Virus record (IMG/VR): IMGVR_UViG_3300025889_000938 | Location: 1 to 24,011 of that record | Direction: 5' to 3' (one strand) | Source: a virus | DNA length: 24,011 nt | In this document: piece after piece, positions 4,014-17,995 of the stretch | Layout: every line of letters starts with the position of its first letter | How positions within the stretch are numbered: position 1 is the stretch's first letter | Notes under the pieces: generated by a model | The model's input: only the letters and a program-made list of their open reading frames with translations | Told to the model about the DNA's origin: nothing | Databases searched by the model: none | Made by a program: the position numbers and the translations under genes

Positions 4014-5645
4014 TTACACATCTCCCATTGTTTTCTGCGCCCGTGCGCCGTCCAGTGCCGCTCTAGCAACATTCGGTGCGGCCTGCGCCATCATCATAGC
4101 CTCTTCCTGCTGTTGCTGCTGCGCGGTGATCTGATCAACATCTTCCTTAGAGCGCAACACGATGGCGGGTGTGCTGTTCGACTCAGCAATCAGACGGTGG
4201 TATGCGTCGAAGTTTACGATGTTCAGTACCTTGGGGTCGAACTGGGCAGACGCGAAGATGGTCTGGATAGTCTGTGTTGCGCCCAATGCCTCATCTGCCT
4301 TCTGGGAGTTGGCGAGCGGCGAAGTAAACTCAATCTCGAATTCACCGCCAGCCTCAACCAGTGCGTCCGGCATCTTCGGCAACAGGTTCGGGATGCTGTT
4401 CAGGATATTCAGTTCGCGCTCGATAAGGACGGAGTGCGACTCGGTTTCTTCCTGAGCAGACATTGGCGACAACAGACGCGCCTGTTCCTGGGAGCGCGTC
4501 AGAATCTCGGTGGCCGTTGACTCACGCTCGACATTGCTGACAAACAGGTCCAACATAAAGGCTTCACGGATCTGCCCATGCTCGGCCATGAGGTTGGCCT
4601 CAGAGATATCGAAACGTGCGCCATGGTTCAGCGGCATAATCGTCGGGTTACCGTTAGCATCAACACCACCAGCAACTACACGACCAGGACGAAGGTCAAC
4701 CGTGTTAATTGAGCCGTCGTCGCGCATGAGAAGCGTGGGGCGCACATTCATGTGTGCAGCTTCGATGTGCGTTTTCTTCATCTGGTTGACCATCTTGACG
4801 TTCGGCAAGATAGCCATAGCGATACCGCGCCCGTAGATTTCGCGAGGCGACTTGCAATCGCGAGAGATGGAATACGGGAACGTACTGTAACCAGTGGTGT
4901 CCAGAATCGCCCTCTCGCTCTCGTTCAGAATGTAGTACGAGATGAACTTACGATGCTCTGGACGGATACTGTCGGGGTCATAATTCTTGTTGGGTTCACA
5001 CGTATGGAGGACTTGAACCTTCTCCATCGTGTTCTTGGACTTCTGCTTCTTGATGCCCTCTGGGATCTTGTCCTCGCCAAACTTCTGCTCAAGCTGGCGG
5101 TAGGTCATATAAATCTTGCGGTATACTGTGTCTACAAAGCCCCAAGCATCCTCGTCAATATAACACTCGCTAAGATGTATAGCTTTGTGCCGAATACGGG
5201 AACCCACAAGGTCTGTAAATATAATACCATTCCCAAAAGAGAACAAGCTGCGACACTGCTCTTGCCGCTGTGACGGGTAATTGGACCCCGGACCATACCG
5301 CATTTGGAACAAAATATCCTCCACGCGGTCGAAGTATTCTCTAACTTCTTGGTCCTCGTTAAGTTCAAAGTTCTTGCTTTTCAATCCGTGCCAACGCTTG
5401 TTGCGTGGCGTGGTTACTGCATCATAGAAGGCTGATGCGCGGTTCAGGGAAAGTTCGGCAACGGAATCGTACTGGGTGCTTCGTCGCTTCTCACCGGGCT
5501 GCGCGAAGTTCTGGAAGTTCTGGTCGCGTGGTGACGTTACTTCGGCCACCTCATCCCACTGCTGCTCAAAGACTGAGCGGTCGGACTTCATGTCCGAGAA
5601 TCTGTCGCAGATTCGTTGTACTATATTTTTCTCGTCCTGCGTCAT
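4014..5645 (-). CDS. Portal protein (head-tail connector, T7 gp8-like)
   Basis: 543 residues, the usual length of T7-type connectors. Features include the helical N-terminus (IVQRICDRFSDMKSDRSVFEQQWDEVAE), DSVAELSLNRASAFYDAVTTPRNKRWHGL, FSFGNGIIF followed by HLSECYIDEDAWGFVDTVYR, the GRGIAMAILPNVKMVNQM stretch, and the C-terminal QEQARLLSPMSAQEETE...RELNIL. These are all signatures of the head-tail connector family. Twelve copies form the DNA channel. Its ATG overlaps the preceding stop (ATGA). The C-terminus carries an QQQQQEEA run, often variable in portals. Confidence 0.95.
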   Translation of the reverse strand: MTQDEKNIVQRICDRFSDMKSDRSVFEQQWDEVAEVTSPRDQNFQNFAQPGEKRRSTQYDSVAELSLNRASAFYDAVTTPRNKRWHGLKSKNFELNEDQEVREYFDRVEDILFQMRYGPGSNYPSQRQEQCRSLFSFGNGIIFTDLVGSRIRHKAIHLSECYIDEDAWGFVDTVYRKIYMTYRQLEQKFGEDKIPEGIKKQKSKNTMEKVQVLHTCEPNKNYDPDSIRPEHRKFISYYILNESERAILDTTGYSTFPYSISRDCKSPREIYGRGIAMAILPNVKMVNQMKKTHIEAAHMNVRPTLLMRDDGSINTVDLRPGRVVAGGVDANGNPTIMPLNHGARFDISEANLMAEHGQIREAFMLDLFVSNVERESTATEILTRSQEQARLLSPMSAQEETESHSVLIERELNILNSIPNLLPKMPDALVEAGGEFEIEFTSPLANSQKADEALGATQTIQTIFASAQFDPKVLNIVNFDAYHRLIAESNSTPAIVLRSKEDVDQITAQQQQQEEAMMMAQAAPNVARAALDGARAQKTMGDV

Positions 5646-6356: not shown

Positions 6357-7919
6357 TTAAAAGTTAAGCACATCGTACTCCGCTATAACCTTAACATATT
6401 CCTTGTTGTTTTTCAAGCTTTTATGTATGGGTTCCGCGTAAGTCATTGCTATCACGTCACCGCCGTCAGGAGACTTCACGCCACGGGACTTCATATCCTT
6501 CTTGGACTCAAGCTGGAGTGCGCCCTTGGGGTTGTTGTAGTGGTATCCAGGAGCCATGAGGTCTGCCGCCAACTCGTCCTCGTTCGGAATCTCGTAGTCG
6601 CCGTCCTCCATATCGGCCTTCATGCGACCCCAGCACTGCGCCCTCAGATTTAAATACTTCGGGTTGCCGTTGTGATCCATGTCGGTGGACTTACCAGCAA
6701 AATTCACCGGCCTCACGATATGGCCGTAGCCCCAGTGCTTCAACGCCGAGTATACACCAGCACCGATACCGATGACATCAACAAACATACGGTCCAGCTT
6801 GTGTTTATTGATATAGTCCACGCATATCTGGGCAACCTCGGTCGGGTCTTTGTCGTTGTAGTACACGACCTCCTTGACGCGCTTACCGATACGGAACCCG
6901 ATACCTGTGCGGTCGCCCGTCCACGCAGGGTCACACGCGCCAATCGCAGGCAGGTCCATATCCAGCAAGTCAGGCTTCGGGATGCGGACCTTCGAGATTA
7001 GTTCAGGTCCAATATACGACTCGTCACCAGAGGTCTGGAACGCCTCGTGGATGTCCGCAGGATACTCCTGCTTGAACCGCCACTCAGAACCCAACTCAGC
7101 CGTCTTGAGGTAACGCCAATACATCTGCGCCCTCGTCAGGTCGTGACGGTCGGCGTAGTCCTGATCCTCCTTGCGAATCTCCCAGTCGTCCGGCGGTGTG
7201 TGCGTGTACTCTTCCTGCCAGAACCAGGGCGTGAAGATTACCTGATACTCGCTCTTGCCCTCAAGGGCTTCCATGCACATATCGTAGAACTTGCCCGTCA
7301 TCCCGTTGGCCGTGGACTCCAGCACAATCTCGGTGCCAAGCCCCATGTCACCCGTAGGAATAGACTGCATGACACCCATGAAGTGGATATCGGCATACGC
7401 CCAGTACGCGACCTCGGACCCGTGGAAGTATTGGATCGTGGAGCCACGACCCACATCTTTCGCGCCTGCCGTACCCACCGTGTATGTGCTGTCAATCTTG
7501 GAGAAGCGAAGTTCCGTCGTGGATGCCGCGTCAGTCTGGACCTTGAAGAGATCGTCGCAGTGCTTATGGTATCGGTGCGTAATACCAAACAGCTTCTTAG
7601 TGGTGTCCTGGGCGTGTGACAGGATGAAGGCGTTCTTCGCCTTGGACATCGTGATGCGCCAGTAGTAGCGACCCGCCGTGTATGTGGAGCAGCCCTGCTG
7701 ACGCGCCTTGACCACCAACGCACGAACGCGACCCGTGCGTTGTAGCTGCTCCTCAATCTTGGAGTGGATGTACAACTGGGCCGCGTTCAGTTTGAACGGC
7801 TCAATCCTGCCGTCCTTTGTCGCTATCTTGAGATTCTTCTCTGCGTAGAACGGGAAGTCCTCCGCCATACGCTTGCGAAGGGCAAACTCACCAGGGAATT
7901 TTTCCTTGGGTTTAGCCAT
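6357..7919 (-). CDS. terL: Terminase large subunit
   Basis: 520 residues from ATG 7919. The ATPase half shows a variant Walker A, KARQQGCST (71-79), a Walker B-type strand ending in E169 (TIQYFHGSE) and the coupling motif STANG (202-206). The C-terminal RNase H-like nuclease shows acidic residues in ACDPAW (D330), MFVDVIG (D381) and GDVIAM (D488). It is the packaging motor and genome-cutting enzyme docking on the portal. An in-frame upstream extension exists, but it overlaps the preceding gene deeply and is basic and low-complexity, so it was not used. Confidence 0.95.
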   Translation of the reverse strand: MAKPKEKFPGEFALRKRMAEDFPFYAEKNLKIATKDGRIEPFKLNAAQLYIHSKIEEQLQRTGRVRALVVKARQQGCSTYTAGRYYWRITMSKAKNAFILSHAQDTTKKLFGITHRYHKHCDDLFKVQTDAASTTELRFSKIDSTYTVGTAGAKDVGRGSTIQYFHGSEVAYWAYADIHFMGVMQSIPTGDMGLGTEIVLESTANGMTGKFYDMCMEALEGKSEYQVIFTPWFWQEEYTHTPPDDWEIRKEDQDYADRHDLTRAQMYWRYLKTAELGSEWRFKQEYPADIHEAFQTSGDESYIGPELISKVRIPKPDLLDMDLPAIGACDPAWTGDRTGIGFRIGKRVKEVVYYNDKDPTEVAQICVDYINKHKLDRMFVDVIGIGAGVYSALKHWGYGHIVRPVNFAGKSTDMDHNGNPKYLNLRAQCWGRMKADMEDGDYEIPNEDELAADLMAPGYHYNNPKGALQLESKKDMKSRGVKSPDGGDVIAMTYAEPIHKSLKNNKEYVKVIAEYDVLNF

Positions 7920-9813: not shown

Positions 9814-10126
9814 CCACTGTAGACTCTGGGTATTTATCTATAATCAATAAATCTGATGTAGATACGGAACCACTACTTCCATCGTGCTTATAGTATTCAA
9901 CAACGGTCTTGTATTTATACCTCCGTGTGGTGATCTTATCTATACCCTCTATAAGTATGTCATCAGATGGAATCCTGAGTATATAATCAAAATCAAGGTA
10001 TTCGTAAGATATTGAACTGCTGTGACTTATACTCTTGAAAGCAAAGGAAATAACCCAACACATTACGCATACCATGAATAGCGACACAACCATGTTTACT
10101 ATTTTTCTAATTTTATTTTCATTCAT
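9803..10126 (-). CDS. Small membrane-anchored protein, 107 aa
   Basis: A basic N-terminus (NENKIRKIVN) is followed by a membrane segment (residues about 12-30, VVSLFMVCVMCWVISFAF) and a hydrophilic C-terminal domain of about 75 residues with many Tyr, Ser and Lys (TTRRYKYKTVVEYY). That predicts an N-in, C-out topology or an uncleaved anchor. It is notably AT-richer than its neighbours, perhaps recently acquired. I chose ATG 10126 with AAGGTG upstream; a GTG at 10132 overlapping the prior stop is also possible. Function unknown; a spanin-like or exclusion role cannot be judged. Confidence 0.65.
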   Translation of the reverse strand: MNENKIRKIVNMVVSLFMVCVMCWVISFAFKSISHSSSISYEYLDFDYILRIPSDDILIEGIDKITTRRYKYKTVVEYYKHDGSSGSVSTSDLLIIDKYPESTVVEK

Positions 10127-10128
10127 AA

Positions 10129-10788
10129 TCACACCTTATTTTCCAGCTTCATTGGGTAAATTGTCGCCAGTTCACCGCCATCAATAATCGCGCATGACAC
10201 AAACGGTCGTTGGTGGTGTTTGGCATACTGGAAGGCGTAATGATGAAAGTCGTAGCCGACACCGACCTGGACAGCAAATAGCCTTTTGTCGGCACCAGCA
10301 AAGTGCTGAACGTAAGCAACAGTATGGTGATGCCCCTGAACAACAGACTTAAACTCTCGCTGTGCGCGAACATGGGCTTTGGGGCCGTCACCATGACAAT
10401 AAATCACATCATCAATCTCAAATGAATCTCCCCACTCCCATCTTGGTGTACCAAGCACATCATTGTAGTGCTTAATCCATACTGATGGAACACCGCCATC
10501 AAATGCTTTTCTTGCAATTATTCTATCGTGGTTGCCTATACAGACCTTCGCGTCCGGGAATGCCTTATACCACGGCTTAAGCTGCTCAATTGCTAATCTC
10601 AGTTCATCACCGGCACCATGACCATTGGGGTCAGATGTGTGAAATGACGCTGCACAGTTGTCAACAACATCGCCAATCATCACCACTTGGTCACACCTAT
10701 ACTTTCGTTTCTTCTCTTTACAGAAGTCGAGAAAGCCATCCATAATGAATGGGGCATGAAGATCAGGGATCACTAGAACTTTACTCAT
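10129..10788 (-). CDS. Calcineurin-like metallophosphoesterase
   Basis: 219 residues carrying the metal-binding motifs in order: IPDLH (D9, H11), GDVVD (39-43), GNHD (85-88), CHGD (131-134) and GHHH (152-155). The family hydrolyses phosphomono- or diesters with a dinuclear metal centre. Phage members have been tied to nucleotide or RNA-end processing, but substrate cannot be told here. The length fits a single-domain enzyme. AGGAGG lies seven bases before the ATG at 10788. It follows a 75-residue unknown gene by one base. Confidence 0.88.
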   Translation of the reverse strand: MSKVLVIPDLHAPFIMDGFLDFCKEKKRKYRCDQVVMIGDVVDNCAASFHTSDPNGHGAGDELRLAIEQLKPWYKAFPDAKVCIGNHDRIIARKAFDGGVPSVWIKHYNDVLGTPRWEWGDSFEIDDVIYCHGDGPKAHVRAQREFKSVVQGHHHTVAYVQHFAGADKRLFAVQVGVGYDFHHYAFQYAKHHQRPFVSCAIIDGGELATIYPMKLENKV

Positions 10789-10789
10789 T

Positions 10790-11017
10790 TTAATCCTCCT
10801 TTACCTTTATGACAGAGATGGTTATGCTATCCTCTTTGCCGCGTGTGCGGCTTACCCCGTGAGTCACGCCGATCCATTCACCCTTCATATTCACCACCTC
10901 ACGGACGATAGTAGCAACACAACGCGCCTGGGATTCCGTGAATAACTCACCCTTGTTTATGTATGATACCGAGAACCCGTCGCCATCACGAACACCAAGT
11001 TTCTGTCTATCACCCAT
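10790..11017 (-). CDS. Hypothetical protein, 75 aa
   Basis: No known family. MGDRQKLGVRDGDGFSVSYI begins a probably beta-rich small protein with a helix FTESQARCVATIVREVVNM and a C-terminal strand (SITISVIKVKED). The ATG at 11017 has AGGGGG seven bases upstream. Two GTG codons immediately before it are weaker alternatives. It is followed closely by the phosphoesterase gene, with which it is probably cotranscribed. Confidence 0.6.
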   Translation of the reverse strand: MGDRQKLGVRDGDGFSVSYINKGELFTESQARCVATIVREVVNMKGEWIGVTHGVSRTRGKEDSITISVIKVKED

Positions 11018-11028
11018 CACCACACCCC

Positions 11029-11295
11029 CTAACTAGTCAATGAACAGAACCCACGCTCTGGCTCAATCTGGTATAACATGCTAATCGTCTCACCACAATC
11101 GCTCTCAGCAACAAACACTGCGACAAGCGGAGAGCAGCGCATGTTGTGCATGGTGAAGACATCTATTGTTTTCACAATAAATACAACCCCATCTTTCACA
11201 TTAAATACAATCCCATCATAGTCCTCAATCACATCACCAACACAATACGGAAGCTTGTGCTTTACTGATAGCGCGTCGAAGTGATCGTTATCCAT
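11029..11295 (-). CDS. Hypothetical protein, 88 aa
   Basis: MDNDHFDALSVKHKLPYCVG opens a small acidic, beta-rich protein (DGIVFNVKDGVVFIVKTI). The repeated 'V-x-D/K-DG-V-V-F' strands suggest an SH3-like barrel, which is inference only. The start ATG (11293-11295) lies within the last codons of the metallopeptidase-like gene (overlap of eight bases). Longer in-frame readings upstream are antisense-like, Arg/Ser-rich and overlap the neighbour almost fully, so I rejected them. Confidence 0.6.
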   Translation of the reverse strand: MDNDHFDALSVKHKLPYCVGDVIEDYDGIVFNVKDGVVFIVKTIDVFTMHNMRCSPLVAVFVAESDCGETISMLYQIEPERGFCSLTS

Positions 11296-11641
11296 TCTTC
11301 TTCCTCCACAGGTCCACCATCTCGTCTGCCTTGCGCTGACACGCCTTCTCGCTGGCACCGGTCGAGTGCCACAACTCGTGCGAGAACGCCTTGACCCACT
11401 CCTCAGCCTCCGCTGCCCGACCACTGGTTGTCGGCGAAAACTTCGACACAGCAACACGAATCTTGTCGCCCCACCCGTAGTACCGAGTCCAACGACCGCG
11501 CCAGCTGCAACACTTGCTGCGCGTCTTACAGACCAACAACCGAATCGCGTCGTCGCGGACACCCATCTGGCGACGACACCAATGGAAGTGCTTAAGCACA
11601 TACTCGTCGCTGCGGTGCGACTTGTTCTTGAGTTCCATCAT
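11288..11641 (-). CDS. Putative small zinc metallopeptidase (HExxH protein), 117 aa
   Basis: The segment EEWVKAFSHELWHSTGASEK contains the zinc metallopeptidase motif HELWH (88-92), with E98 and E107 available downstream as possible third ligands. The HExxH motif near the C-terminal end of a small protein, with A/F before it, resembles SprT-like or ImmA/IrrE-like domains, but the overall fold cannot be proven. The N-terminal half is basic with Cys/Trp residues (CCSWRGRWTRYYGWGD). The start ATG at 11641 overlaps the preceding stop as ATGA. Possible targets include host regulators or virion proteins; unknown. Confidence 0.65.
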   Translation of the reverse strand: MMELKNKSHRSDEYVLKHFHWCRRQMGVRDDAIRLLVCKTRSKCCSWRGRWTRYYGWGDKIRVAVSKFSPTTSGRAAEAEEWVKAFSHELWHSTGASEKACQRKADEMVDLWRKKNG

Positions 11642-12024
11642 TCGTCGCCCTCCGCAAGCGTTTTGCCGATCTCGTGCCAACGCGACATGCCGTCGTCCTC
11701 CTTCTCCTCCTCGACTTCGTCCTTCGGTGTGGAGATAGACTTGTCGATGATCTTGTTTATCAGCGACAACCGAGCCTGCTGGCTCAGCATCTCGTCGCTC
11801 TCGATGATCTCACCCTCCGTAGACACGAAGTACTCGCGACCCGTCAACGCCATACGCACCACCAACTCGAGAAGGCCGGAGTCCAGGATGTTACGGCGCA
11901 ATACCGCCACCGTCAGCTTGTTGCCGCGATTGATCTCCGCGACCTCGGCAGCATCGTTCTTGCCGATAGCGATAACGCCCGTCTCGGCTGCCATCACAGG
12001 TGGATCTTTTTTCTTTCTAGCCAT
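11638..12024 (-). CDS. Hypothetical protein, 128 aa (possible small terminase-type)
   Basis: Basic N-terminus (MARKKKD), a central helical region (AEINRGNKLTVAVLRRNILD; LLELVVRMALTGREYF; SQQARLSLINKIIDKSI) and a highly acidic tail (KDEVEEEKEDD). A DNA-binding helical core with an acidic C-terminus fits small terminases in size and style, but no signature confirms it, and the gene lies far from terL. AAGGAAA precedes the ATG at 12024. It leads into the metallopeptidase-like gene by ATGA overlap. Confidence 0.65.
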   Translation of the reverse strand: MARKKKDPPVMAAETGVIAIGKNDAAEVAEINRGNKLTVAVLRRNILDSGLLELVVRMALTGREYFVSTEGEIIESDEMLSQQARLSLINKIIDKSISTPKDEVEEEKEDDGMSRWHEIGKTLAEGDE

Positions 12025-12033
12025 TGGGTTTCC

Positions 12034-12183
12034 TTATTTCTCAATCATCCAACCACGACCCCACAGAATGAAGTAGTGGTTCATACACTCAAGTGAGCAG
12101 CAACGGTCGCGCTCAGGGTGTTGCGCCCCCAAATAGAAGTCGAGTTCGCGCATCTTGAAGCCGCAGTTCGCGCAGTTGCTCAT
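12034..12183 (-). CDS. Tiny zinc-finger-like protein, 49 aa
   Basis: MSNCANCGFKMRE ... DRCCSLECMNHYF gives C-x2-C (residues 4 and 7) and C-x3-C (29 or 30 to 34), a treble-clef-like zinc knuckle common in small phage proteins. The start ATG (12181-12183) has AGGAGGCACC eight bases upstream. It lies eight bases after the previous stop. Role unknown; nucleic-acid or protein binding is likely for the family type. Confidence 0.65.
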   Translation of the reverse strand: MSNCANCGFKMRELDFYLGAQHPERDRCCSLECMNHYFILWGRGWMIEK

Positions 12184-12191
12184 GGTGCCTC

Positions 12192-12350
12192 CTAGTGCTT
12201 CACGGCGAACTCTACGCCGTAGTCGTCCTCGTCGTCCTCAAGAATCTCCATGTCCTCGCCCGACAACGGTGGTGGGCATACGCCCATCATCGACAACCAC
12301 ATCGCCTGTTTCCACGGCTCAATTGCTGAGTTGAGGTCGTATCTAATCAT
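12192..12350 (-). CDS. Hypothetical acidic protein, 52 aa
   Basis: A short amphipathic N-terminal half (SAIEPWKQAMWLSMMG) and an acidic run (EDMEILEDDEDDYG). No family. The start overlaps the preceding stop (ATGA), which supports real translation. Small acidic phage proteins often act as DNA mimics or inhibitors, but there is no evidence for that here. Confidence 0.55.
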   Translation of the reverse strand: MIRYDLNSAIEPWKQAMWLSMMGVCPPPLSGEDMEILEDDEDDYGVEFAVKH

Positions 12351-12576
12351 ATCACTGGCTCCAGGCCACGGGATTCACAAAACTCAATAAACTCATCAAC
12401 CTCGCTTTGCTTTTCGACGTAGCTTGCTTTTTCAATACGCCTAGAAACATTGTCCTTATAATGACCATACATCGAGAGTAGTGTCGGGGAACCCGATATC
12501 GCATGATTTACCATCGTTTTATAGTGTGTGTACAACACAATGGAGTCACCATACTTAGTCTCAATCATATCACTGG
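12345..12576 (-). repeat. Duplicated 14-base gene junction
   Basis: The same 14 bases, CCAGTGATATGATT on the minus strand, occur at 12345-12358 and 12563-12576. Each carries the last codons (P-V-I-stop) of one gene and the ATGATT start of the next. The coding sequences between do not look related. Confidence 0.8.
12347..12568 (-). CDS. Hypothetical protein, 73 aa
   Basis: Contains a short beta start (SIVLYTHYKTMVNHA) and a helical charged end (EKQSEVDEFIEFCESRG). No family recognised. It starts and ends in ATGA overlaps with its neighbours. Its last codons and the junction are identical to those of the gene upstream (see repeat at 12345-12576). Relatively AT-rich. Confidence 0.6.
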   Translation of the reverse strand: MIETKYGDSIVLYTHYKTMVNHAISGSPTLLSMYGHYKDNVSRRIEKASYVEKQSEVDEFIEFCESRGLEPVI

Positions 12577-12744
12577 TCCCTCCACGCTAACAGCAGTCCG
12601 ATAATAGCTATAGTCAAAATATACAACTTCATGTATACCATCGGCGCGTATCCCAATATGGACCACATTCGACAACGGAATCCGAAGGAAGTCGTATTCG
12701 TAGTGGTCATCAACAACACAGTAGTGAAGTTCCAAGAATTCCAT
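12565..12744 (-). CDS. First gene of the leftward operon, hypothetical, 59 aa
   Basis: MEFLELHYCVVDDHYEYDFL followed by a beta-rich, Tyr-rich C-terminal part (VVHIGIRADGIHEVVYFDYSYY). No family. It is the first coding region after the leftward promoter; its ATG (12744) is about 20 bases after the predicted transcript start, and no good ribosome site is visible, so initiation may be weak or near-leaderless. It overlaps the next gene by ATGA. Confidence 0.55.
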   Translation of the reverse strand: MEFLELHYCVVDDHYEYDFLRIPLSNVVHIGIRADGIHEVVYFDYSYYRTAVSVEGPVI

Positions 12745-12770
12745 GATTTAGTGTACCATATTCTGCTGTG

Positions 12771-12799
12771 AGATTACCATGTGGCGGGGTGTTTGTCAA
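12771..12799 (-). promoter_or_regulatory. Leftward sigma70-type promoter
   Basis: TTGACA (12794-12799), 17-base spacer, TAATCT (12771-12776), read on the minus strand. Upstream is an A/T-rich stretch that could act as an UP element. The predicted start is near 12764, feeding the operon beginning at 12744. Confidence 0.8.
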
Positions 12800-13119
12800 G
12801 AAAAATAATGTCTGGCAAAAATATACCAAAAAATTATAGAAGTTTGGCGTTTTTTGACCTCGGTTTGTATGCCTCTTTACAGCGCGTCCGAGCATCGCCT
12901 CGCCCTCCCCTGGGGCTTCGTCGCTGAAGGTATAGATACGTCCTGGCTTATTGATAACCCATTCTCATATCGTAATATCACGACATATCGATATATCTAT
13001 TATGGACACCTGTGTCCAGGATTACGTTAGGCCGGTCACGCTACAGCCTGTAGCCGGTCGGCTGCCAGTGTATTGACAGAATTAATACTCAGTATTGACA
13101 ACTTTGTGGAAAAAACCGG
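12800..13119. promoter_or_regulatory. Divergent control region with palindromes and direct repeats
   Basis: No gene fits in this stretch. It contains an operator-like palindrome TGGACAC-CT-GTGTCCA (13003-13018), a second GCTACA-GCC-TGTAGC (13040-13054) flanked by direct GCCGGTC copies (13031-13037 and 13053-13059), an AT-rich segment with two CATATCG copies (12966 and 12984), and two GTATTGACA boxes (13070-13078, 13092-13100). AACTTTGTG occurs at 13100-13108 and again at 13132-13140. Binding sites for a repressor or activator of both promoters are likely. No repressor gene was seen. Confidence 0.6.
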
Positions 13120-13147
13120 TTGACTTGATGAAACTTTGTGTTAAACT
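13120..13147 (+). promoter_or_regulatory. Probable rightward early promoter
   Basis: TTGACT (13120-13125), 16-base spacer, TAAACT (13142-13147). The -10 is imperfect, so an activator may help. Two further TTGACA boxes upstream (13073, 13095) have no -10 partner. The first early gene starts at 13201. Confidence 0.5.
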
Positions 13148-13200
13148 CAGGGTATAACATACAACAAACACAACGGCCACAGGCCAGAAAAGAGGAAAAG

Positions 13201-13374
13201 ATGAACATGTATAGGAAAATCCACATATACTCAAACGCCAAATATTGCGGAACGATATCTAATGTGTCGCAAAACGATATAAACCGTCTATTGTCAAATG
13301 GTGGTGTTTTCTATAATAACGGTAGTAATATTGCTACGATAAGTTATGAACAATTATGGCAACTACCCCAATAA
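13201..13374 (+). CDS. First early gene, hypothetical, 57 aa
   Basis: MNMYRKIHIYSNAKYCGTIS and a short helix VSQNDINRLLSNGG, ending in SYEQLWQLPQ. No family. AGAGGAAAAG lies directly before ATG 13201; a short GGCC-ACA-GGCC hairpin sits upstream. An upstream in-frame reading would begin inside the promoter and was rejected. AT-richer than the replication genes. Early phage genes of this size often alter host functions, but nothing here shows that. Confidence 0.65.
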   Translation: MNMYRKIHIYSNAKYCGTISNVSQNDINRLLSNGGVFYNNGSNIATISYEQLWQLPQ

Positions 13375-13380
13375 AATAAT

Positions 13381-13439
13381 CCGAAACGCGCTCACGCAGC
13401 GCGTCTACACACTGTGGCGAGTGTGTACTGATGATGGAA
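13381..13439 (+). ncRNA. Structured leader, copy A
   Basis: Two hairpins in tandem: ACGCGCT-CACGC-AGCGCGT (13386-13404) and TACACACT-GTGGCG-AGTGTGTA (13406-13427), then TGATGATGGAA. The same element with a compensatory pair change recurs at 13714. It lies between a stop codon and the ribosome site (AAGGGGAA) of the next gene. It is more likely a cis-acting mRNA structure than an independent RNA. Confidence 0.7.
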
Positions 13440-13465
13440 GCCAAAACAATGAAGGGGAACGACAG

Positions 13466-13708
13466 ATGAAATACACACCGAAACCATTCAAGGCAGCATT
13501 ATGGATACAGAGCGGCGAGGGCGAGAGCAGCAAGGCTGTAATATATACAGGCAAGATGGATATGCGATCTATCAGGTCACGGCTGACCCGTGAACGTTGT
13601 AACGGTGAACGATGGGCCTATGCATGCATCTATAGTAATTTCAGTCACGTCCAGCTAACAGATGAGCAATTGGAATATTTTGTGAGCGTCGACGGATATA
13701 TATTCTAA
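13466..13708 (+). CDS. Early protein, hypothetical, 80 aa
   Basis: MKYTPKPFKAALWIQSGEGE opens a small basic protein with a KMDMRSIRSRLTRERCNGERW segment and a C-terminal strand-helix pattern (SHVQLTDEQLEYFV). No family recognised. AAGGGGAACGACAG precedes ATG 13466. It is preceded by leader copy A and followed by leader copy B, so it is a self-contained cassette. Confidence 0.65.
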   Translation: MKYTPKPFKAALWIQSGEGESSKAVIYTGKMDMRSIRSRLTRERCNGERWAYACIYSNFSHVQLTDEQLEYFVSVDGYIF

Positions 13709-13713
13709 TAATT

Positions 13714-13773
13714 CCGAAACGCGCCCACACGGCGCGTCTACACACTTGGCGAGTGTGTACTGATGATGGAACG
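13714..13773 (+). ncRNA. Structured leader, copy B
   Basis: ACGCGCC-CACAC-GGCGCGT (13719-13737) and TACACACT-TGGCG-AGTGTGTA (13739-13759), then TGATGATGGAA. Compared with copy A, the closing pair of the first stem changes from T-A to C-G on both arms while the stem is kept. Other differences lie in loops. AAAGGGAACGAA and ATG 13800 follow. Confidence 0.7.
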
Positions 13774-13799
13774 CCAAACAAACCAAGAAAGGGAACGAA

Positions 13800-14039
13800 A
13801 TGAAAACAGTAGCAGATGTGCGAAAAGCCATTAAACCGTTGGGGTTTAAGGTAAAAACCACGGCTGTATCGTGGGGCAAGGCCGCGACCTACACCGACAC
13901 AAACGGTGCTAAGATGCCCGACATCTTCTTCACTAATGAGGCATTAGAACACTGGAAGCCCCTGATTGCTTGGCGTAAGGCTAATCGTGAGGCGTTGCAG
14001 GTTGTACGTGAAAATGAGGACTGCACGGGGTTGCTGTAA
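13800..14039 (+). CDS. Early protein, hypothetical, 79 aa
   Basis: MKTVADVRKAIKPLGFKVKT begins a basic alpha/beta protein with a helix (VADVRKAIKPLGF), KTTAVSWGKAATYTD strands and a C-terminal helix (IAWRKANREALQVVRENE). No family. Strong AAAGGG site before the ATG. The 'VADVRKAIKPLGFKVKT' opening resembles small phage early proteins of unknown role. Confidence 0.65.
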   Translation: MKTVADVRKAIKPLGFKVKTTAVSWGKAATYTDTNGAKMPDIFFTNEALEHWKPLIAWRKANREALQVVRENEDCTGLL

Positions 14040-14063
14040 TCAACCAGAAAAGGACATAAACAC

Positions 14064-14135
14064 ATGCAATCACTAATCGAAGCTGCAATCACTTTCGCGC
14101 TATTCGCGCGTCTAGGGGAAACCAATGTATTCTGA
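14064..14135 (+). CDS. Possible very small early peptide, 23 aa
   Basis: MQSLIEAAITFALFARLGET followed by NVF. It is hydrophobic in the middle and could be a short membrane peptide or a leader peptide. AAGGA lies about ten bases before the ATG. Its coding region holds a CGCGC-TATTC-GCGCG hairpin (14096-14110), and it overlaps the next gene start by eleven bases. Translation is plausible but unproven. Confidence 0.4.
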   Translation: MQSLIEAAITFALFARLGETNVF

Positions 14136-14250
14136 TTTTGAAAACGAAACGCGAGACGATATCGCCGCACAATACGCCGAAAATGGCATTGTTTACAACG
14201 AAACGTGCGCCGCATTTTGGGCCGCGCGTACCGATGAAACCGTAGTCTAA
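14125..14250 (+). CDS. Early protein, hypothetical, 41 aa
   Basis: MYSDFENETRDDIAAQYAEN and a C-terminal ETCAAFWAARTDET. Acidic, mostly helical, no known family. AGGGGAAACC directly before ATG 14125. The upstream hairpin at 14096-14110 and the palindrome over its stop give it the same hairpin-flanked layout as its neighbours. Confidence 0.6.
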   Translation: MYSDFENETRDDIAAQYAENGIVYNETCAAFWAARTDETVV

Positions 14251-14260
14251 CGCGCGTTAG
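14247..14260 (+). repeat. 14-base perfect palindrome over a stop codon
   Basis: CTAACGCGCGTTAG reads the same on both strands and contains the TAA stop of the 41-residue gene. As RNA it would fold CTAAC-GCGC-GTTAG just upstream of the next AAAAGGA ribosome site. Confidence 0.7.
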
Positions 14261-14279
14261 CGCAAAAGGAAACGCAACA

Positions 14280-14555
14280 ATGGACACCAAATTCACCCCC
14301 GCAATGGCAGCCTGGACCCGCTATATCCCCGCCAGTACTCACCGGAGCGCACGTATTCGCGTAGAATCCTGGTTTGATGGTTCACGCAAGTATTATCCCT
14401 ATGATTACAACGAATCCGGAACGGACGGAGCGCACCGAGCGGCGTTTCTACAGTGGTGCGTAGACACTCACCCCGACATGTCTACCCCCGCTGAAGTCCG
14501 TTATTCTGGCACCCCGGACGGACGGGGCTATACTTTCCAAATCGTTCGCGGCTAA
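14280..14555 (+). CDS. Early protein, hypothetical, 91 aa
   Basis: MDTKFTPAMAAWTRYIPAST, then a Ser/Tyr-rich middle (SWFDGSRKYYPYDYNE), a helix around AHRAAFLQWCVDTHPD and a C-terminal beta strand. No family recognised. AAAAGGAAACGC precedes ATG 14280. Followed by a 14-bp hairpin and the next early gene. Confidence 0.65.
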   Translation: MDTKFTPAMAAWTRYIPASTHRSARIRVESWFDGSRKYYPYDYNESGTDGAHRAAFLQWCVDTHPDMSTPAEVRYSGTPDGRGYTFQIVRG

Positions 14556-14562
14556 TCCCAGT

Positions 14563-14594
14563 ATTGACACATTCGCGCCGGCGAGTGTGTCAAT
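14563..14594 (+). promoter_or_regulatory. Hairpin leader, diverged copy
   Basis: ATTGACACATTCGC-GCCG-GCGAGTGTGTCAAT forms a 14-bp stem with a single T/G wobble. GGCGAGTGTGT is shared with leader copies A and B, and AAACCAAGAAA downstream is shared with copy B. The left arm is preceded by CAG and includes a CAGTATTGACA box (14559-14569) also found at 13090. No T-tract follows. Confidence 0.7.
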
Positions 14595-14636
14595 GCGGGT
14601 GATTAGGCCCTAATAAACCAAGAAAAGGATAAAGCA

Positions 14637-14801
14637 ATGAGTATCAAAGACCTTACTTCGCAGCAATTGAAACGTATTTACTGGCGGATTTACAATTCGC
14701 ACTCCGACTGCTACGGTCTGGACTGGCGCACACTGCGCATCGTCTCGCCAGGTGCAGCTTGTACGCTCGACGCGATCTTGCGCGAACTGCGCTCGCGATA
14801 A
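14637..14801 (+). CDS. Early protein, hypothetical, 54 aa
   Basis: MSIKDLTSQQLKRIYWRIYN and a basic helical end (AILRELRSR). No family. AAAAGGATAAAG lies just before ATG 14637. It is the last gene before the large inverted repeat and the non-coding region. Confidence 0.6.
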   Translation: MSIKDLTSQQLKRIYWRIYNSHSDCYGLDWRTLRIVSPGAACTLDAILRELRSR

Positions 14802-14808
14802 ATTAGCC

Positions 14809-14895
14809 CCTAGAATGCCCTGTAACGCGATTTCGTTCGCCGCTAAGGTAATCACACTACCTTAGCGGCGATCGTGCGTTCTGGGGCATTCTAGG
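14809..14895. repeat. Large two-part inverted repeat (87 bases)
   Basis: Outer arms CCTAGAATGCCC (14809-14820) and GGGCATTCTAGG (14884-14895) are perfect; inner arms CGCCGCTAAGGTA (14838-14850) and TACCTTAGCGGCG (14858-14870) are perfect with a seven-base loop. The middle can pair in part (AACGC/GCGTT). No T-tract follows on either strand, so it is not a standard intrinsic terminator, although it could stop or stabilise early transcripts. It separates the early genes from the origin-like region. Confidence 0.85.
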
Positions 14896-15036
14896 TGCCT
14901 TCCTGGGCGTCCTGGCGGTGCATCATAACCACGACACGCGGCCCCACGGTCTCGACATCCCGACAACAGGTGAATGTGTGGACCCGCCGGATTCACGGCA
15001 CCGCGCCGCGCCGCGCTGGATTCCGGCAACATACGG

Positions 15037-15115
15037 GCTAAAGTTGAACCCCCTCGTGCTAACGTTAAACCCCTGCGCCAGATTCTGACAACCCGCGTGC
15101 TAACATTGAACCCCC
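15037..15115 (+). repeat. Three iterons (GCTAANRTTRAACCCC)
   Basis: Copies GCTAAAGTTGAACCCCC (15037), GCTAACGTTAAACCCC (15058) and GCTAACATTGAACCCCC (15099). The start-to-start distances are 21 and 41 bases, i.e. two and four helical turns, with only a degenerate trace in the middle slot near 15079. All face the same way. Confidence 0.75.
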
Positions 15116-15170
15116 GCGCCCAGAAACCATGCGCGGGTAATTAATACAAAACTTTTCTACTTTATACTAA

Positions 15171-15248
15171 ATTATCTACTAAATTCGGATCGCGTAAACC
15201 CTTGCCCTGTCTATATATATATAGAGAGAGAGAGATTTAGTAGATAAT
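15171..15248. repeat. 14-base inverted repeat flanking a TA/GA tract
   Basis: ATTATCTACTAAAT (15171-15184) and ATTTAGTAGATAAT (15235-15248) are exact complements. Between them lies a (TA)n(GA)n tract (about 15211-15234). TCTACT-type copies recur at 15154, 15300, 15358 and 15370, two of them followed by AAATT, so the element is part of a wider repeat family. Confidence 0.75.
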
Positions 15249-15409
15249 ACTATACGGGGTCGCGGGGGGACTTGCCAGGCTTCCAGTAGGTGACCCCCAT
15301 CTACTTTTCGACTAAATTGAGTTTATTTGTAAAACTTTATATAGCAACGGCTTACGTATCTACTAAATTGTCTACTTAATACGCGCACTTTTGTATAAAT
15401 TATTATAAG

Positions 15410-15438
15410 TTGAATAACCGCCCGAATAGTAATATACT
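15410..15438 (+). promoter_or_regulatory. Sigma70-type promoter for the HNH gene
   Basis: TTGAAT (15410-15415), 17-base spacer, TATACT (15433-15438). The predicted start is near 15445 and reads into the HNH gene, and possibly on into the run of small genes after it. Confidence 0.7.
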
Positions 15439-15474
15439 TACACAGTCTGGAAACAACCAATTGGAGTGTTAATT

Positions 15475-15963
15475 ATGAAAGTGTGTCCGAAGTGTAAGAT
15501 TGAGAAAGACGAGTATATGTTTGGTGTGTGTAGGTCTAGGCGTGATGGGTTGCAACCATACTGTAAGCAGTGTAATATTGAGTATCAAAATAAGAGGCAA
15601 GCAGATGACCCTGAATCGTTTAAGGAATACCAGCGACGGTACTATAGGGAAAATAGGGATTCGCGCTTAAGGTATATTAAAGGAAGGATTGATGAGCGCG
15701 CCGAATTCCTAAGGGGTGTAAAAGAGTCTAATGGTTGTAAGCAGTGCGGTATCACAGACCACAGAGTGCTGCACTTCCACCATAGAGATCCATCACAAAA
15801 ATCATTCAATATAGCCTCTGGCAGCAGCAGGTCACTAAGTAAACTTCAACAGGAAATAGAGAAGTGTGACATACTTTGTGCTAACTGCCACGCGATACTA
15901 CACTATAAGCAAGAAAGGGATGGTACGTTAAAGGTTAATCGTGGCGCGCCACGCACATTCTAA
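15475..15963 (+). CDS. HNH endonuclease-type zinc protein
   Basis: 162 residues from ATG 15475, chosen because GGAG lies eight bases upstream; a GTG nine bases earlier overlaps that site. Two zinc parts are seen: an N-terminal VCPKCKIEK ... YCKQCN knuckle (C4, C7, C30, C33), and an HNH core with CKQCG (88-91), HFHH (100-103) and LCANCHAILH (C135, C138, H139). HNH enzymes cut DNA; free-standing phage ones are often homing endonucleases or packaging nickases. Its AT-rich codon use and its position next to an origin-like region suit a mobile gene. It is not next to terL, so a packaging role is less likely. Confidence 0.85.
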   Translation: MKVCPKCKIEKDEYMFGVCRSRRDGLQPYCKQCNIEYQNKRQADDPESFKEYQRRYYRENRDSRLRYIKGRIDERAEFLRGVKESNGCKQCGITDHRVLHFHHRDPSQKSFNIASGSSRSLSKLQQEIEKCDILCANCHAILHYKQERDGTLKVNRGAPRTF

Positions 15964-16093
15964 CATTACTTAAGCCATTAACTGTCTGGTTGTTGACTGT
16001 TAGATTCCGTCCGAAAATTTTTTTGGAATCGATGGAACCTTTGGGCGGGACGTGGGTATTAACCTGGTAGTCGCAACAAAAAGGAGGCGCGAT
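15964..16093 (+). other. Gap between HNH gene and small-gene operon
   Basis: Holds a GATTCC...GGAATC hairpin (about 16001-16030) around an AAAATTTTTTT run, and the strong AAAAAGGAGG ribosome site of the next gene. No convincing promoter or terminator was found. Confidence 0.4.
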
Positions 16094-16213
16094 ATGACTG
16101 AAAAGCAGGAACTAACCATTGCTACCGTGTGCGCGGTTGTCGCGTGCGCTGCGGTTCCGCTCGTGGTGCAGGCGTTCAACGTCTACCTGGCGTGGCGTGG
16201 ATGGGAGATTTAG
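16094..16213 (+). CDS. Tiny single-pass membrane protein, 39 aa
   Basis: The N-terminus MTEKQELTIATV is followed by a hydrophobic stretch (residues about 8-28: TIATVCAVVACAAVPLVVQAF) and a short YLAWRGWEI end. One membrane segment, no signal for cleavage. AAGGAGGCGCGAT precedes the ATG, the strongest ribosome site in this block. Such miniproteins in early regions may act on the host envelope, but nothing proves a role. Confidence 0.6.
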   Translation: MTEKQELTIATVCAVVACAAVPLVVQAFNVYLAWRGWEI

Positions 16214-16214
16214 T

Positions 16215-16370
16215 ATGCGTAAAGTAGACGAAATGATTGCCGACCTGAATCAGTTGGTCAACGACGAGGTGTATCATCTTGAACCGCACGATATCGAGCG
16301 GTTCATCGAGGAAATGGACACCCTGACGGATGAGTTATGGCTATGGCACCGCCGCGAGGCCAGCCTATGA
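16215..16370 (+). CDS. Small acidic helical protein, 51 aa
   Basis: MRKVDEMIADLNQLVNDEVY and a second helix DIERFIEEMDTLTDELWLWH. No family. GGGAG lies before the ATG at 16215. A longer reading upstream is out of step with its neighbour and overlaps the membrane protein, so it was not used. Ends in an ATGA overlap with the next gene. Confidence 0.65.
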   Translation: MRKVDEMIADLNQLVNDEVYHLEPHDIERFIEEMDTLTDELWLWHRREASL

Positions 16371-16531
16371 ATATCGAATTCATAGAAAAACAGAACCCGC
16401 GAAAATATCGCGCAGTTGATGTGGAACAAAAGCCGGATGATCGGGGTTACTACCTGAGTGACTGGCATTACAGCCGGGTGAAGTGCCTGGAACAAATCAA
16501 AAAGGAGGGTACACCTAATGGAAACAAGTAA
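16367..16531 (+). CDS. Hypothetical protein, 54 aa
   Basis: MNIEFIEKQNPRKYRAVDVE and a C-terminal SDWHYSRVKCLEQIKKEG. Basic, mixed alpha/beta, no family recognised. The ATG overlaps the preceding stop. It ends inside the start region of the next gene. Confidence 0.6.
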   Translation: MNIEFIEKQNPRKYRAVDVEQKPDDRGYYLSDWHYSRVKCLEQIKKEGTPNGNK

Positions 16532-16772
16532 TGTGACGCAGCTACACACGTTTGAGTTCCTCGCCAACGGCGAGGTGTTTGACCGCCGAATCGGCAACTG
16601 GTACACTGCACGGTGCTACGCACAGCACGTAAGCGACGAGACGGGCATGGCAATCGGGTTCTACGACGTGTTGTTGCCGCAGCATATGTCCACCGCAGCA
16701 TGGTGGACCACGGAATCGCCCAAAGAGGTTTACGCAGCCTACAATATTGAAAAGGAAGAAACCAATGACTAG
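16518..16772 (+). CDS. Hypothetical protein, 84 aa
   Basis: METSNVTQLHTFEFLANGEV followed by a Trp/Tyr-rich beta part (AAWWTTESPKEVYAAYN). No family recognised. Strong AGGAGG site before ATG 16518. Overlaps both neighbours by some bases, as is usual in this operon. Confidence 0.65.
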   Translation: METSNVTQLHTFEFLANGEVFDRRIGNWYTARCYAQHVSDETGMAIGFYDVLLPQHMSTAAWWTTESPKEVYAAYNIEKEETND

Positions 16773-16947
16773 AAAAGCAGCCGAGATTGGAATGGATATC
16801 ATTAAGCTGGTATCCGACGAGGGTATGCACCTTGAGGGTGTCGAGGAATATGAGATTCTCCGGTGGACCCTGCAAGAGTGCCTGGACGCGGTGAAGGCCG
16901 CAATCAAAAAGGAGGAAGCATATTATGAGCAACTGCAGCAGCTTTAA
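16765..16947 (+). CDS. Small helical protein, 60 aa
   Basis: MTRKAAEIGMDIIKLVSDEG, then YEILRWTLQECLDAVKAAIKK, predicted almost wholly helical with an amphipathic second half. No family. The ATG at 16765 has AAGGAAG about six bases upstream and overlaps the preceding stop by eight bases. Confidence 0.65.
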   Translation: MTRKAAEIGMDIIKLVSDEGMHLEGVEEYEILRWTLQECLDAVKAAIKKEEAYYEQLQQL

Positions 16948-17065
16948 CGAGAACGCGCTAAGTGCGGACGAACGTGAGGCGATGGACCTGGTTGCCGACA
17001 TGATACGCAGCCAATGGATGCAGGACGCGAATAGCTGGCTAGATGAAGCCATGGGGGAATACTGA
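16925..17065 (+). CDS. Hypothetical protein, 46 aa
   Basis: MSNCSSFNENALSADEREAM and a helical LVADMIRSQWMQDANSWLDE. No family. AAAGGAGGAAGC lies just before the ATG (16925). It overlaps the gene before and its last base is the first base of the next gene (TGATG). Confidence 0.6.
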   Translation: MSNCSSFNENALSADEREAMDLVADMIRSQWMQDANSWLDEAMGEY

Positions 17066-17211
17066 TGGACGAGCCATTAGACGAGCCATATTGCAGAATA
17101 TGTGATGGGGATGAGATGTGTGATGAACTCTATCCAATTGAAGACCCGTGGGGTGGTGTCTATGGATATATGTGCGCGGTATGCGCGGAAGGGAGACAAG
17201 GAAATGAGTGA
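17065..17211 (+). CDS. Tiny zinc-ribbon-like protein, 48 aa
   Basis: YCRICDGDEMCDELYP (C10, C13) and YMCAVCAEG (C37, C40) give two C-x2-C knuckles 23 residues apart, a zinc ribbon. Likely binds nucleic acid or protein. Starts at the previous stop (TGATG) and overlaps the next gene by eight bases. Confidence 0.65.
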   Translation: MDEPLDEPYCRICDGDEMCDELYPIEDPWGGVYGYMCAVCAEGRQGNE

Positions 17212-17458
17212 CTATATGCCTGACCGCCCCATTAACGACACGCTGCGCGAGGTAACTGAGGCCAGATTCGAGGATTTTGTTGAGGACTTGCCGGACGCAC
17301 TGGAATCTGAGTTGCGCGAGGTTTCGGATGCCCTTAAGGCGTTGAGTGATGCGCTTCGGAGTGAACTGTACTGTGCGGATTTCGACACGGACTGGCGCAG
17401 CTACGACGAAGAATTCTTTGTTGAACTGAAACGAACAATTGACTACTTTGGAGGCTGA
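17204..17458 (+). CDS. Acidic helical protein, 84 aa
   Basis: MSDYMPDRPINDTLREVTEA, then a long helical acidic run (DLPDALESELREVSDALKAL). No family. AAGGAA before ATG 17204; an upstream in-frame ATG overlaps the zinc-ribbon gene and was rejected. Followed by three bases and then the next gene. Confidence 0.65.
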   Translation: MSDYMPDRPINDTLREVTEARFEDFVEDLPDALESELREVSDALKALSDALRSELYCADFDTDWRSYDEEFFVELKRTIDYFGG

Positions 17459-17461
17459 CTA

Positions 17462-17995
17462 ATGCACACGCTAGTAATTTTCAGAGACAATAACGGGAAG
17501 TGGTGCGCCCCGCTAGAAGCTATCAACGGCAGAACTGGGGAGGTATACCCCGGCCACACCGCGCACCGCTTCACGGGCGAGGTTGATGCCGACGGGGTGC
17601 CGTGGTATGAAGGTGACGAAGGCTTCGACAAGTACGGGCGTCCGTTTGTTGTCGGGTTTTCGGAGGGATGTTTTTGGCAGAAGTACGTGGATAAATCGGT
17701 GATATTCACGACGCGCCTACTCACCTCTTCCACCCACACGCCACCCGTGAAGAAGTACAAGCGTCTACGCCCATTAGGTTGTCCAGTCATGGTCGAGGAC
17801 GAGCGCGTCAGCGACCGCCGCACAGGCACGAAGCGGCCAGAGCGAAAGACGGGGCGTATGGGTGTGCCATGTATGAAACCCTTCAAGGAAACAGATTCCG
17901 ATTGGCCTTGTAATAAACCCATAGGTCGCCGCAATGGACCAATGGACCGCCGCCACCCAATCAGCGAGCGCAGGCAGGAGAACCGCGATGCCTGA
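17462..17995 (+). CDS. Hypothetical protein with Arg-rich tail, 177 aa
   Basis: The N-terminal part is beta-rich and acidic (HTLVIFRDNNGKWCAPLEAI; VDADGVPWYEGDEGF). The C-terminal third is strongly basic with repeated DRR units (SDRRTGTKRPERKTGR; NGPMDRRHPISERRQENRD), probably flexible and possibly nucleic-acid binding. No family recognised. GGAGG precedes ATG 17462. It overlaps the next gene by eight bases. Confidence 0.65.
   Translation: MHTLVIFRDNNGKWCAPLEAINGRTGEVYPGHTAHRFTGEVDADGVPWYEGDEGFDKYGRPFVVGFSEGCFWQKYVDKSVIFTTRLLTSSTHTPPVKKYKRLRPLGCPVMVEDERVSDRRTGTKRPERKTGRMGVPCMKPFKETDSDWPCNKPIGRRNGPMDRRHPISERRQENRDA

Follow-up and report, generated by a model that had tools for sequence, protein, structure and literature searches.

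The window analysed here is a linear piece of viral DNA of 24,011 bases from IMG/VR and encodes a terminase, a head-tail adaptor and a major head protein, together with several small early genes. Two of these small genes are preceded by near-identical leaders, each with two adjacent hairpins and then CTGATGATGGAA, which raises the question of what these leaders are and what they do to the transcript. A sequence-only reading had taken them for hairpins under selection that tune translation initiation. The leaders are indeed present, at 13379–13446 and 13712–13777.

Identity and architecture of the leaders

In a covariance-model search against Rfam, both leaders matched family RF02276 over the full length of the model (positions 1–66), with 62.2 bits for the first and 43.3 bits for the second against a curated cut-off of 37 bits. 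On sequence grounds, both leaders are type II hammerhead ribozymes. The earlier statement that no such element was known was therefore wrong, as RF02276 has been described, including its clusters around single prophage genes (PMC3088659).

According to the covariance model and a descriptor, the catalytic core of both copies consists of CTGATGA and GAAA, with GTC as the cleavage site; the covariance model and the fold place closed loops on stems I and III and leave stem II open. Along the RNA, both copies run in the order stem II 3′ strand, GAAA, closed stem III, GTC, closed stem I, CTGATGA, stem II 5′ strand and finally a tail complementary to loop I. The two tandem hairpins reported earlier are both there; they form stems III and I of a single ribozyme, on either side of its cleavage site, and are not a leader acting on initiation. 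Hammerheads cut after the H of NUH, and the predicted products follow from this rule. The features of the region are as follows.

13120–13147, + strand: candidate early promoter ahead of the cassette, TTGACT-16-TAAACT, its second hexamer preceded by TG (consensus scan only)
13201–13374, + strand: first early gene, 57 aa, stop codon 8 nt before the GAAA of ribozyme 1
13379–13446, + strand: ribozyme 1 (covariance model, descriptor and fold)
13380–13382, 13383–13386 and 13387–13403: ribozyme 1 stem II 3′ strand, GAAA and stem III hairpin
13405^13406, 13406–13427 and 13428–13434: ribozyme 1 predicted cleavage, stem I hairpin and CTGATGA
13435 and 13436–13438: ribozyme 1 extra U and stem II 5′ strand
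13415–13418 with 13440–13443: ribozyme 1 pseudoknot, UGGC with GCCA
13406–13738, + strand: predicted released RNA, 333 nt, one complete gene
13466–13708, + strand: 80-aa gene between the ribozymes (open reading frame)
13712–13777, + strand: ribozyme 2 (covariance model, descriptor, fold and pseudoknot)
13716–13719 and 13720–13736: ribozyme 2 GAAA and stem III
13738^13739, 13739–13759 and 13760–13766: ribozyme 2 predicted cleavage, stem I and CTGATGA
13767 and 13768–13771 with 13712–13715: ribozyme 2 extra U and stem II
13747–13751 with 13772–13776: ribozyme 2 pseudoknot, UGGCG with CGCCA (6 bp if U13746 joins)
13800–14039, + strand: 79-aa gene after ribozyme 2 (open reading frame, no known family)
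14553–14636, + strand: probable decayed hammerhead leader (local alignment and hairpin)

The two ribozymes are about 90% alike, though they stand between unrelated genes. Loop I and the tail differ between the copies yet match again within each, giving a pseudoknot of 4 bp in copy 1 and of 5–6 bp, with a different sequence, in copy 2. As had been noticed before, the two copies differ at the terminal pair of the first hairpin, now stem III: T-A in one, C-G in the other. Taken alone, this single compensated pair is weak evidence; the full covariance-model matches and the re-matched pseudoknot are far stronger. The fold energies of ribozymes 1 and 2 are modest (z of −1.6 and −2.8 against shuffles), and stem II pairs in both only when one extra U is allowed after CTGATGA, as is also the case in 31 of 283 relatives. 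GAAA lies 8 and 7 nt past the upstream stop codon in the two copies, and the ribozymes stand 31 and 33 nt ahead of a start codon.

Neither the 80-aa nor the 79-aa gene has a match in Pfam or PHROGs. A relative of the former occurs in contig L251 (51% identity over part of the protein), a contig without an RF02276 match by covariance-model search; for the latter, the method used found no relative in IMG/VR.

A third leader and the neighbouring hairpins

The sequence-only reading had included three further hairpins, at 14096–14110, 14247–14260 and 14563–14594, and had placed nearly every tiny early gene in a hairpin unit. The last of these is real: it belongs to a 16-bp hairpin at 14558–14600 with a z of −7.6 against shuffles, within a leader (14553–14636) that has, in order, the stop codon TAA, TCC, the hairpin carrying GGCGAGTGTGT and then AAACCAAGAAAAGGA, as after ribozyme 2. 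Compared with leader 2, this leader reached a local alignment score of 30, which none of 500 shuffles and none of 563 other window segments reached. The leader before 14637 and ribozyme 2 have the right side of stem I in common, as well as the spacer AAACCAAGAAARGGA; missing from this leader are GAAA, stem III and an intact CTGATGA core. The simplest reading, based on these two short common stretches, is that it is probably a decayed ribozyme.

The other two hairpins, also considered as degenerate ribozymes, were rejected: the one at 14096 gave a z of −1.1 and the one at 14247, of only 4 bp, a z of −1.4 against shuffles, neither with any above-chance likeness to the leaders. Since both lie within chance, the claim for nearly every early gene finds no support in the window, which holds two intact ribozymes and, probably, one relic instead of five units. 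The 14096 hairpin falls inside a possible 23-codon gene (14064–14135) with a good Shine-Dalgarno sequence, which overlaps the next start.

Further repeats lie downstream. Just past the last small early gene, nested inverted repeats at 14806–14898 (one of 23 nt at 83%, one of 17 nt at 94%) give a large RNA hairpin that lacks a T run and may mark the operon's end. Matches to miRNA families at 14835–14873 were far below their cut-off and were discarded. Three GTGCTAACGTTAAACCCCC-like repeat copies at 15013–15120, spaced by 21–41 nt, are iteron-like, and the A+T-rich stretch at 15138–15403, with CTACTAAATT repeated in both orientations and a TATATATA/GAGAGA stretch, is a possible replication origin.

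Pairing and position in relatives

Relatives were collected with a regular-expression descriptor that requires stems I and III, applied to 2.4 Mb of fetched loci. It gave 299 matches against 2 with a scrambled core, a count that is not a frequency because most loci had been fetched by hammerhead pattern. Stem II and the pseudoknot are not demanded by the descriptor and therefore provide fair tests of its matches. Among 283 distinct relatives, 68% have at least three stem II pairs, against 23% when partners were dealt anew; a pseudoknot of at least 4 bp occurs in 58% (23% re-dealt) and one of at least 5 bp in 29% (6%).

The position of the ribozymes is equally regular. An upstream frame stops within 60 nt before the ribozyme in 92% of cases (30% for random positions), and in 79% of 269 ribozymes GAAA lies no more than 8 nt past that stop codon, compared with 7% of random positions in the same loci. 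Most copies have GAAA 1–6 nt past the stop codon, which often abuts stem II. A Shine-Dalgarno sequence and start codon follow within 120 nt in 91% of the 269 (42% at random), at a median of 26 nt after CTGATGA. Such tight spacing of genes and ribozymes may be mere compactness of phage genomes.

At least two copies were found at 45 of 118 loci, all on one strand at 44 of the 45, so that tandem pairs and arrays go well past the single pattern match expected from the way each locus was fetched. Genes between ribozymes are complete, with their own start and stop, and in 71 of the 106 stretches between neighbouring ribozymes the first gene runs up to the following ribozyme. We examined 129 genes that follow hammerheads: matches include ArdA, ArdC, Mu GemA, Mor and HU, usually with no more than one or two members per family, and most of the genes are without assigned function and largely unrelated to each other. 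One ArdA-like (antirestriction, Pfam) gene, at 10092–10670 of locus L005, directly follows a hammerhead, echoing the ardA context of PMC3088659.

Close relatives of the window were sought as well. None spanning the ribozyme region was found, and the examined relatives G004–G009 lack an RF02276 match. Searches from the terminase and the ATPase led to contigs that were short or without hammerheads, except for one descriptor match in L266. Ribozymes are rarer upstream of homologous genes with increasing protein divergence, a trend that is not evidence because the loci were chosen for having a ribozyme.

Long arrays and cultured phages

In two loci the descriptor revealed arrays in which nearly every gene is preceded by a ribozyme, with 10 copies in L083 and 8 in L005. 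A 57-kb contig (IMGVR_UViG_3300017605_000570, the contig of L014, here G001) has 24 RF02276 matches above the cut-off, all on one strand; its array at 9932–17520 (locus L284) extends over 7.6 kb with close to one ribozyme per gene. This contig, from a phage with a contractile tail, carries genes for terminase, portal, capsid and tail sheath. Its three ribozymes with loop GTCGCG have the tail GCAGCGA, and those with loop GTGGT have GCAGCC or GCAGCT, which is pseudoknot covariation inside one operon.

A BLAST search with the G001 array led to the Streptomyces phages Marav and Salutena and to Rhodobacter phage RcWaterboi; BLAST against cultured phages gave no match for the early region of the window or for the array region of L083. 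The fetched stretches contain about 12 RF02276 matches above the cut-off in each of Marav (L288) and Salutena (L289), and one in RcWaterboi. In Marav and Salutena the ribozymes lie in an operon of small genes, where the records list no features under the BLAST matches, and they are kept at orthologous boundaries between the two phages. At one such boundary, where the downstream proteins are 77% identical, both stems have been rewritten with their pairing kept. Streptomyces phages R4 and Paedore have 9 and 7 RF02276 matches, respectively; the ribozymes are unannotated in all four Streptomyces phages.

Some annotated "hypothetical proteins" overlap ribozymes. In R4 (L298, JX182370.1), three annotated proteins contain a hammerhead match on their own strand:

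1763–1846: gp60.1
4126–4218: gp67.1
7074–7175: gp75.1

Because each contains a same-strand ribozyme match, these three may not be real genes. A proposed relation between hammerheads and the aminoglycoside sensitivity of phages (PMC9239200) was rejected, as the most sensitive phage, Alderaan, has no RF02276 match.

Taken together, the positions, the kept pairings, the compensated stem changes and the arrays strongly support the earlier proposal of selected RNA structure before early genes.

Proposed function

Based on these observations, we propose that the tandem type II hammerheads probably serve as gene punctuation in an early phage operon, self-cleavage yielding single-gene mRNAs. The early operon would be transcribed as one RNA, in which each ribozyme would fold just behind the stop codon of its upstream gene and would cut itself at GUC. 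Hammerhead products carry a 5′-OH and a 2′,3′-cyclic phosphate. The upstream message would thus end in the stem III hairpin with the cyclic phosphate, and the downstream message would begin with a 5′-OH on a nucleotide paired in stem I, followed by the pseudoknot just before the Shine-Dalgarno sequence. In E. coli, a 5′-terminal stem-loop or a missing 5′ phosphate slows 5′-end-dependent decay; applied to the phage, this would shield the new ends and separate the fates of neighbouring genes. Since both ends would be structured, the 5′ base paired and the 3′ in a hairpin, we favour, in view of the known rules of 5′-end decay, processing into protected single-gene mRNAs. Cleavage in the cell, protective ends and a benefit to the phage are what we infer from ribozymes whose identity, position and kept pairing in relatives are observed.

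That the long arrays keep to one strand and have nearly one ribozyme for each gene strongly suggests punctuation of the message. There is about an even chance that some phages place a ribozyme at nearly every gene boundary of whole operons (about 24 in one contig, 7–12 in the cultured Streptomyces phage stretches) as RNA-only punctuation, such that most mRNAs of the operon would start with a 5′-OH pseudoknot and end with a hairpin and cyclic phosphate, the window being a reduced, partly decayed case. Two features of the window weigh against the proposed processing, namely the U inserted after CTGATGA in both copies, ahead of stem II, and the 4-bp pseudoknot of copy 1; one ribozyme reportedly became about 20-fold slower when its pseudoknot was cut from 6 to 4 bp (PMC3088659). 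As at least one leader in the same operon appears decayed, ribozymes appear to be dispensable at some boundaries.

Other explanations were weighed against single-gene processing. Simple uncleaved hairpin leaders for tuning translation initiation would suit the decayed third leader, which retains a strong hairpin and the Shine-Dalgarno spacer; however, both full copies keep the entire catalytic core and cleavage site, which tuning would not need, and we regard this as the least probable explanation. The likeness of the window copies between unrelated genes, and the mostly unrelated, unnamed genes after hammerheads elsewhere, would also fit recombination boundaries or a small mobile element, with ends conserved for cassette exchange and catalysis incidental. 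This is very improbable given that copies within a locus usually differ (median normalised similarity 0.63, with less than 1% of pairs reaching 0.9) and that orthologous stems change with pairing kept, which DNA homology alone would not require.

Tandem hammerheads on one strand, at a median interval of 398 nt (n = 96), would free ligatable ends, and an RtcB-type ligase could join 5′-OH to cyclic phosphate in gene-length RNAs to give stable circular mRNAs, as in retrozymes and viroid-like RNAs. However, multiples of three are not overrepresented among the interval lengths (23 of 85), so selection for an endless frame is not supported; the genes in between are complete, and PMC3088659, which sought circular or spliced products, reports none. 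We consider circular mRNAs quite improbable. Given the established footprint of a ribosome, one standing at the upstream stop codon would cover GAAA and stem III and block folding, and the ribozyme could then sense translation by cleaving only if translation of the upstream gene is poor. The short distance from stop codon to GAAA in most relatives is consistent with such a switch, but compact genomes alone predict the same spacing and the gaps in the window are longer, which leaves it unlikely. Both translation sensing and circular RNA have less support than processing into single-gene mRNAs.

Both the ribozyme and its occurrence in clusters around phage genes have been described before, and the window pair is a new example. 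For the long arrays of nearly one ribozyme per gene and the cases in cultured phages, we found no report in the mostly freely available literature searched, and earlier reports may exist. A 2017 review (PMC6155905) describes the function of phage and prophage hammerheads as an open question. The unannotated arrays found in cultured phages, R4 of Streptomyces coelicolor A3(2) among them, make that question testable.

Comparison with known systems

The start-associated sequence of mycobacteriophages, which we take to be GGGATAGGAGCCC, gave 3 matches in the window at 3 mismatches, against 4.4 expected by chance. In cluster K mycobacteriophages (PMC3203893) it is likewise a phage repeat close upstream of gene starts; it differs in sequence and is not reported there as a ribozyme. 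Theta ribozymes near phage tRNA genes (PMC10879173) are also self-cleaving RNAs in phage transcripts with a proposed role in RNA processing, but they have an HDV-like fold and lie in tRNA 3′ trailers. No tRNA gene was found in the window, and a reading as tRNA processing was therefore dropped.

Retrozymes and viroid-like RNAs (PMC4918200, PMC7761336) have, like the window, tandem hammerheads whose cleavage would set free an RNA of unit length. They are not phage operons, whereas the type II ribozymes of the window flank complete protein genes, with no signs of a retroelement. A retrozyme or circular-RNA element was rejected, as its unit is non-coding and that of the window holds a complete 80-aa frame.

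The ribozymes described by Perreault et al. (2011; PMC3088659) are the closest counterpart. The window copies agree with RF02276 in core, cleavage site, stem II-open permutation and loop I-to-tail pseudoknot, and in their phage setting between small genes without assigned function; they differ in the extra U between CTGATGA and stem II, the near-identical stems of the two copies and the probable decayed third leader adjoining them. In that study, tandem hammerheads self-cleaved in vitro, one triple set also in E. coli, and processing into single-gene or operon-length mRNAs was proposed. Its clusters surround single prophage genes, as in the triple set at ardA in Agrobacterium tumefaciens, and the window similarly has two same-strand ribozymes around the gene at 13466–13708. 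The genes of the window are not ardA, although ArdA is also found downstream of hammerheads in the relatives, whose arrays of 8–24 copies are longer than those that the text of PMC3088659 names.
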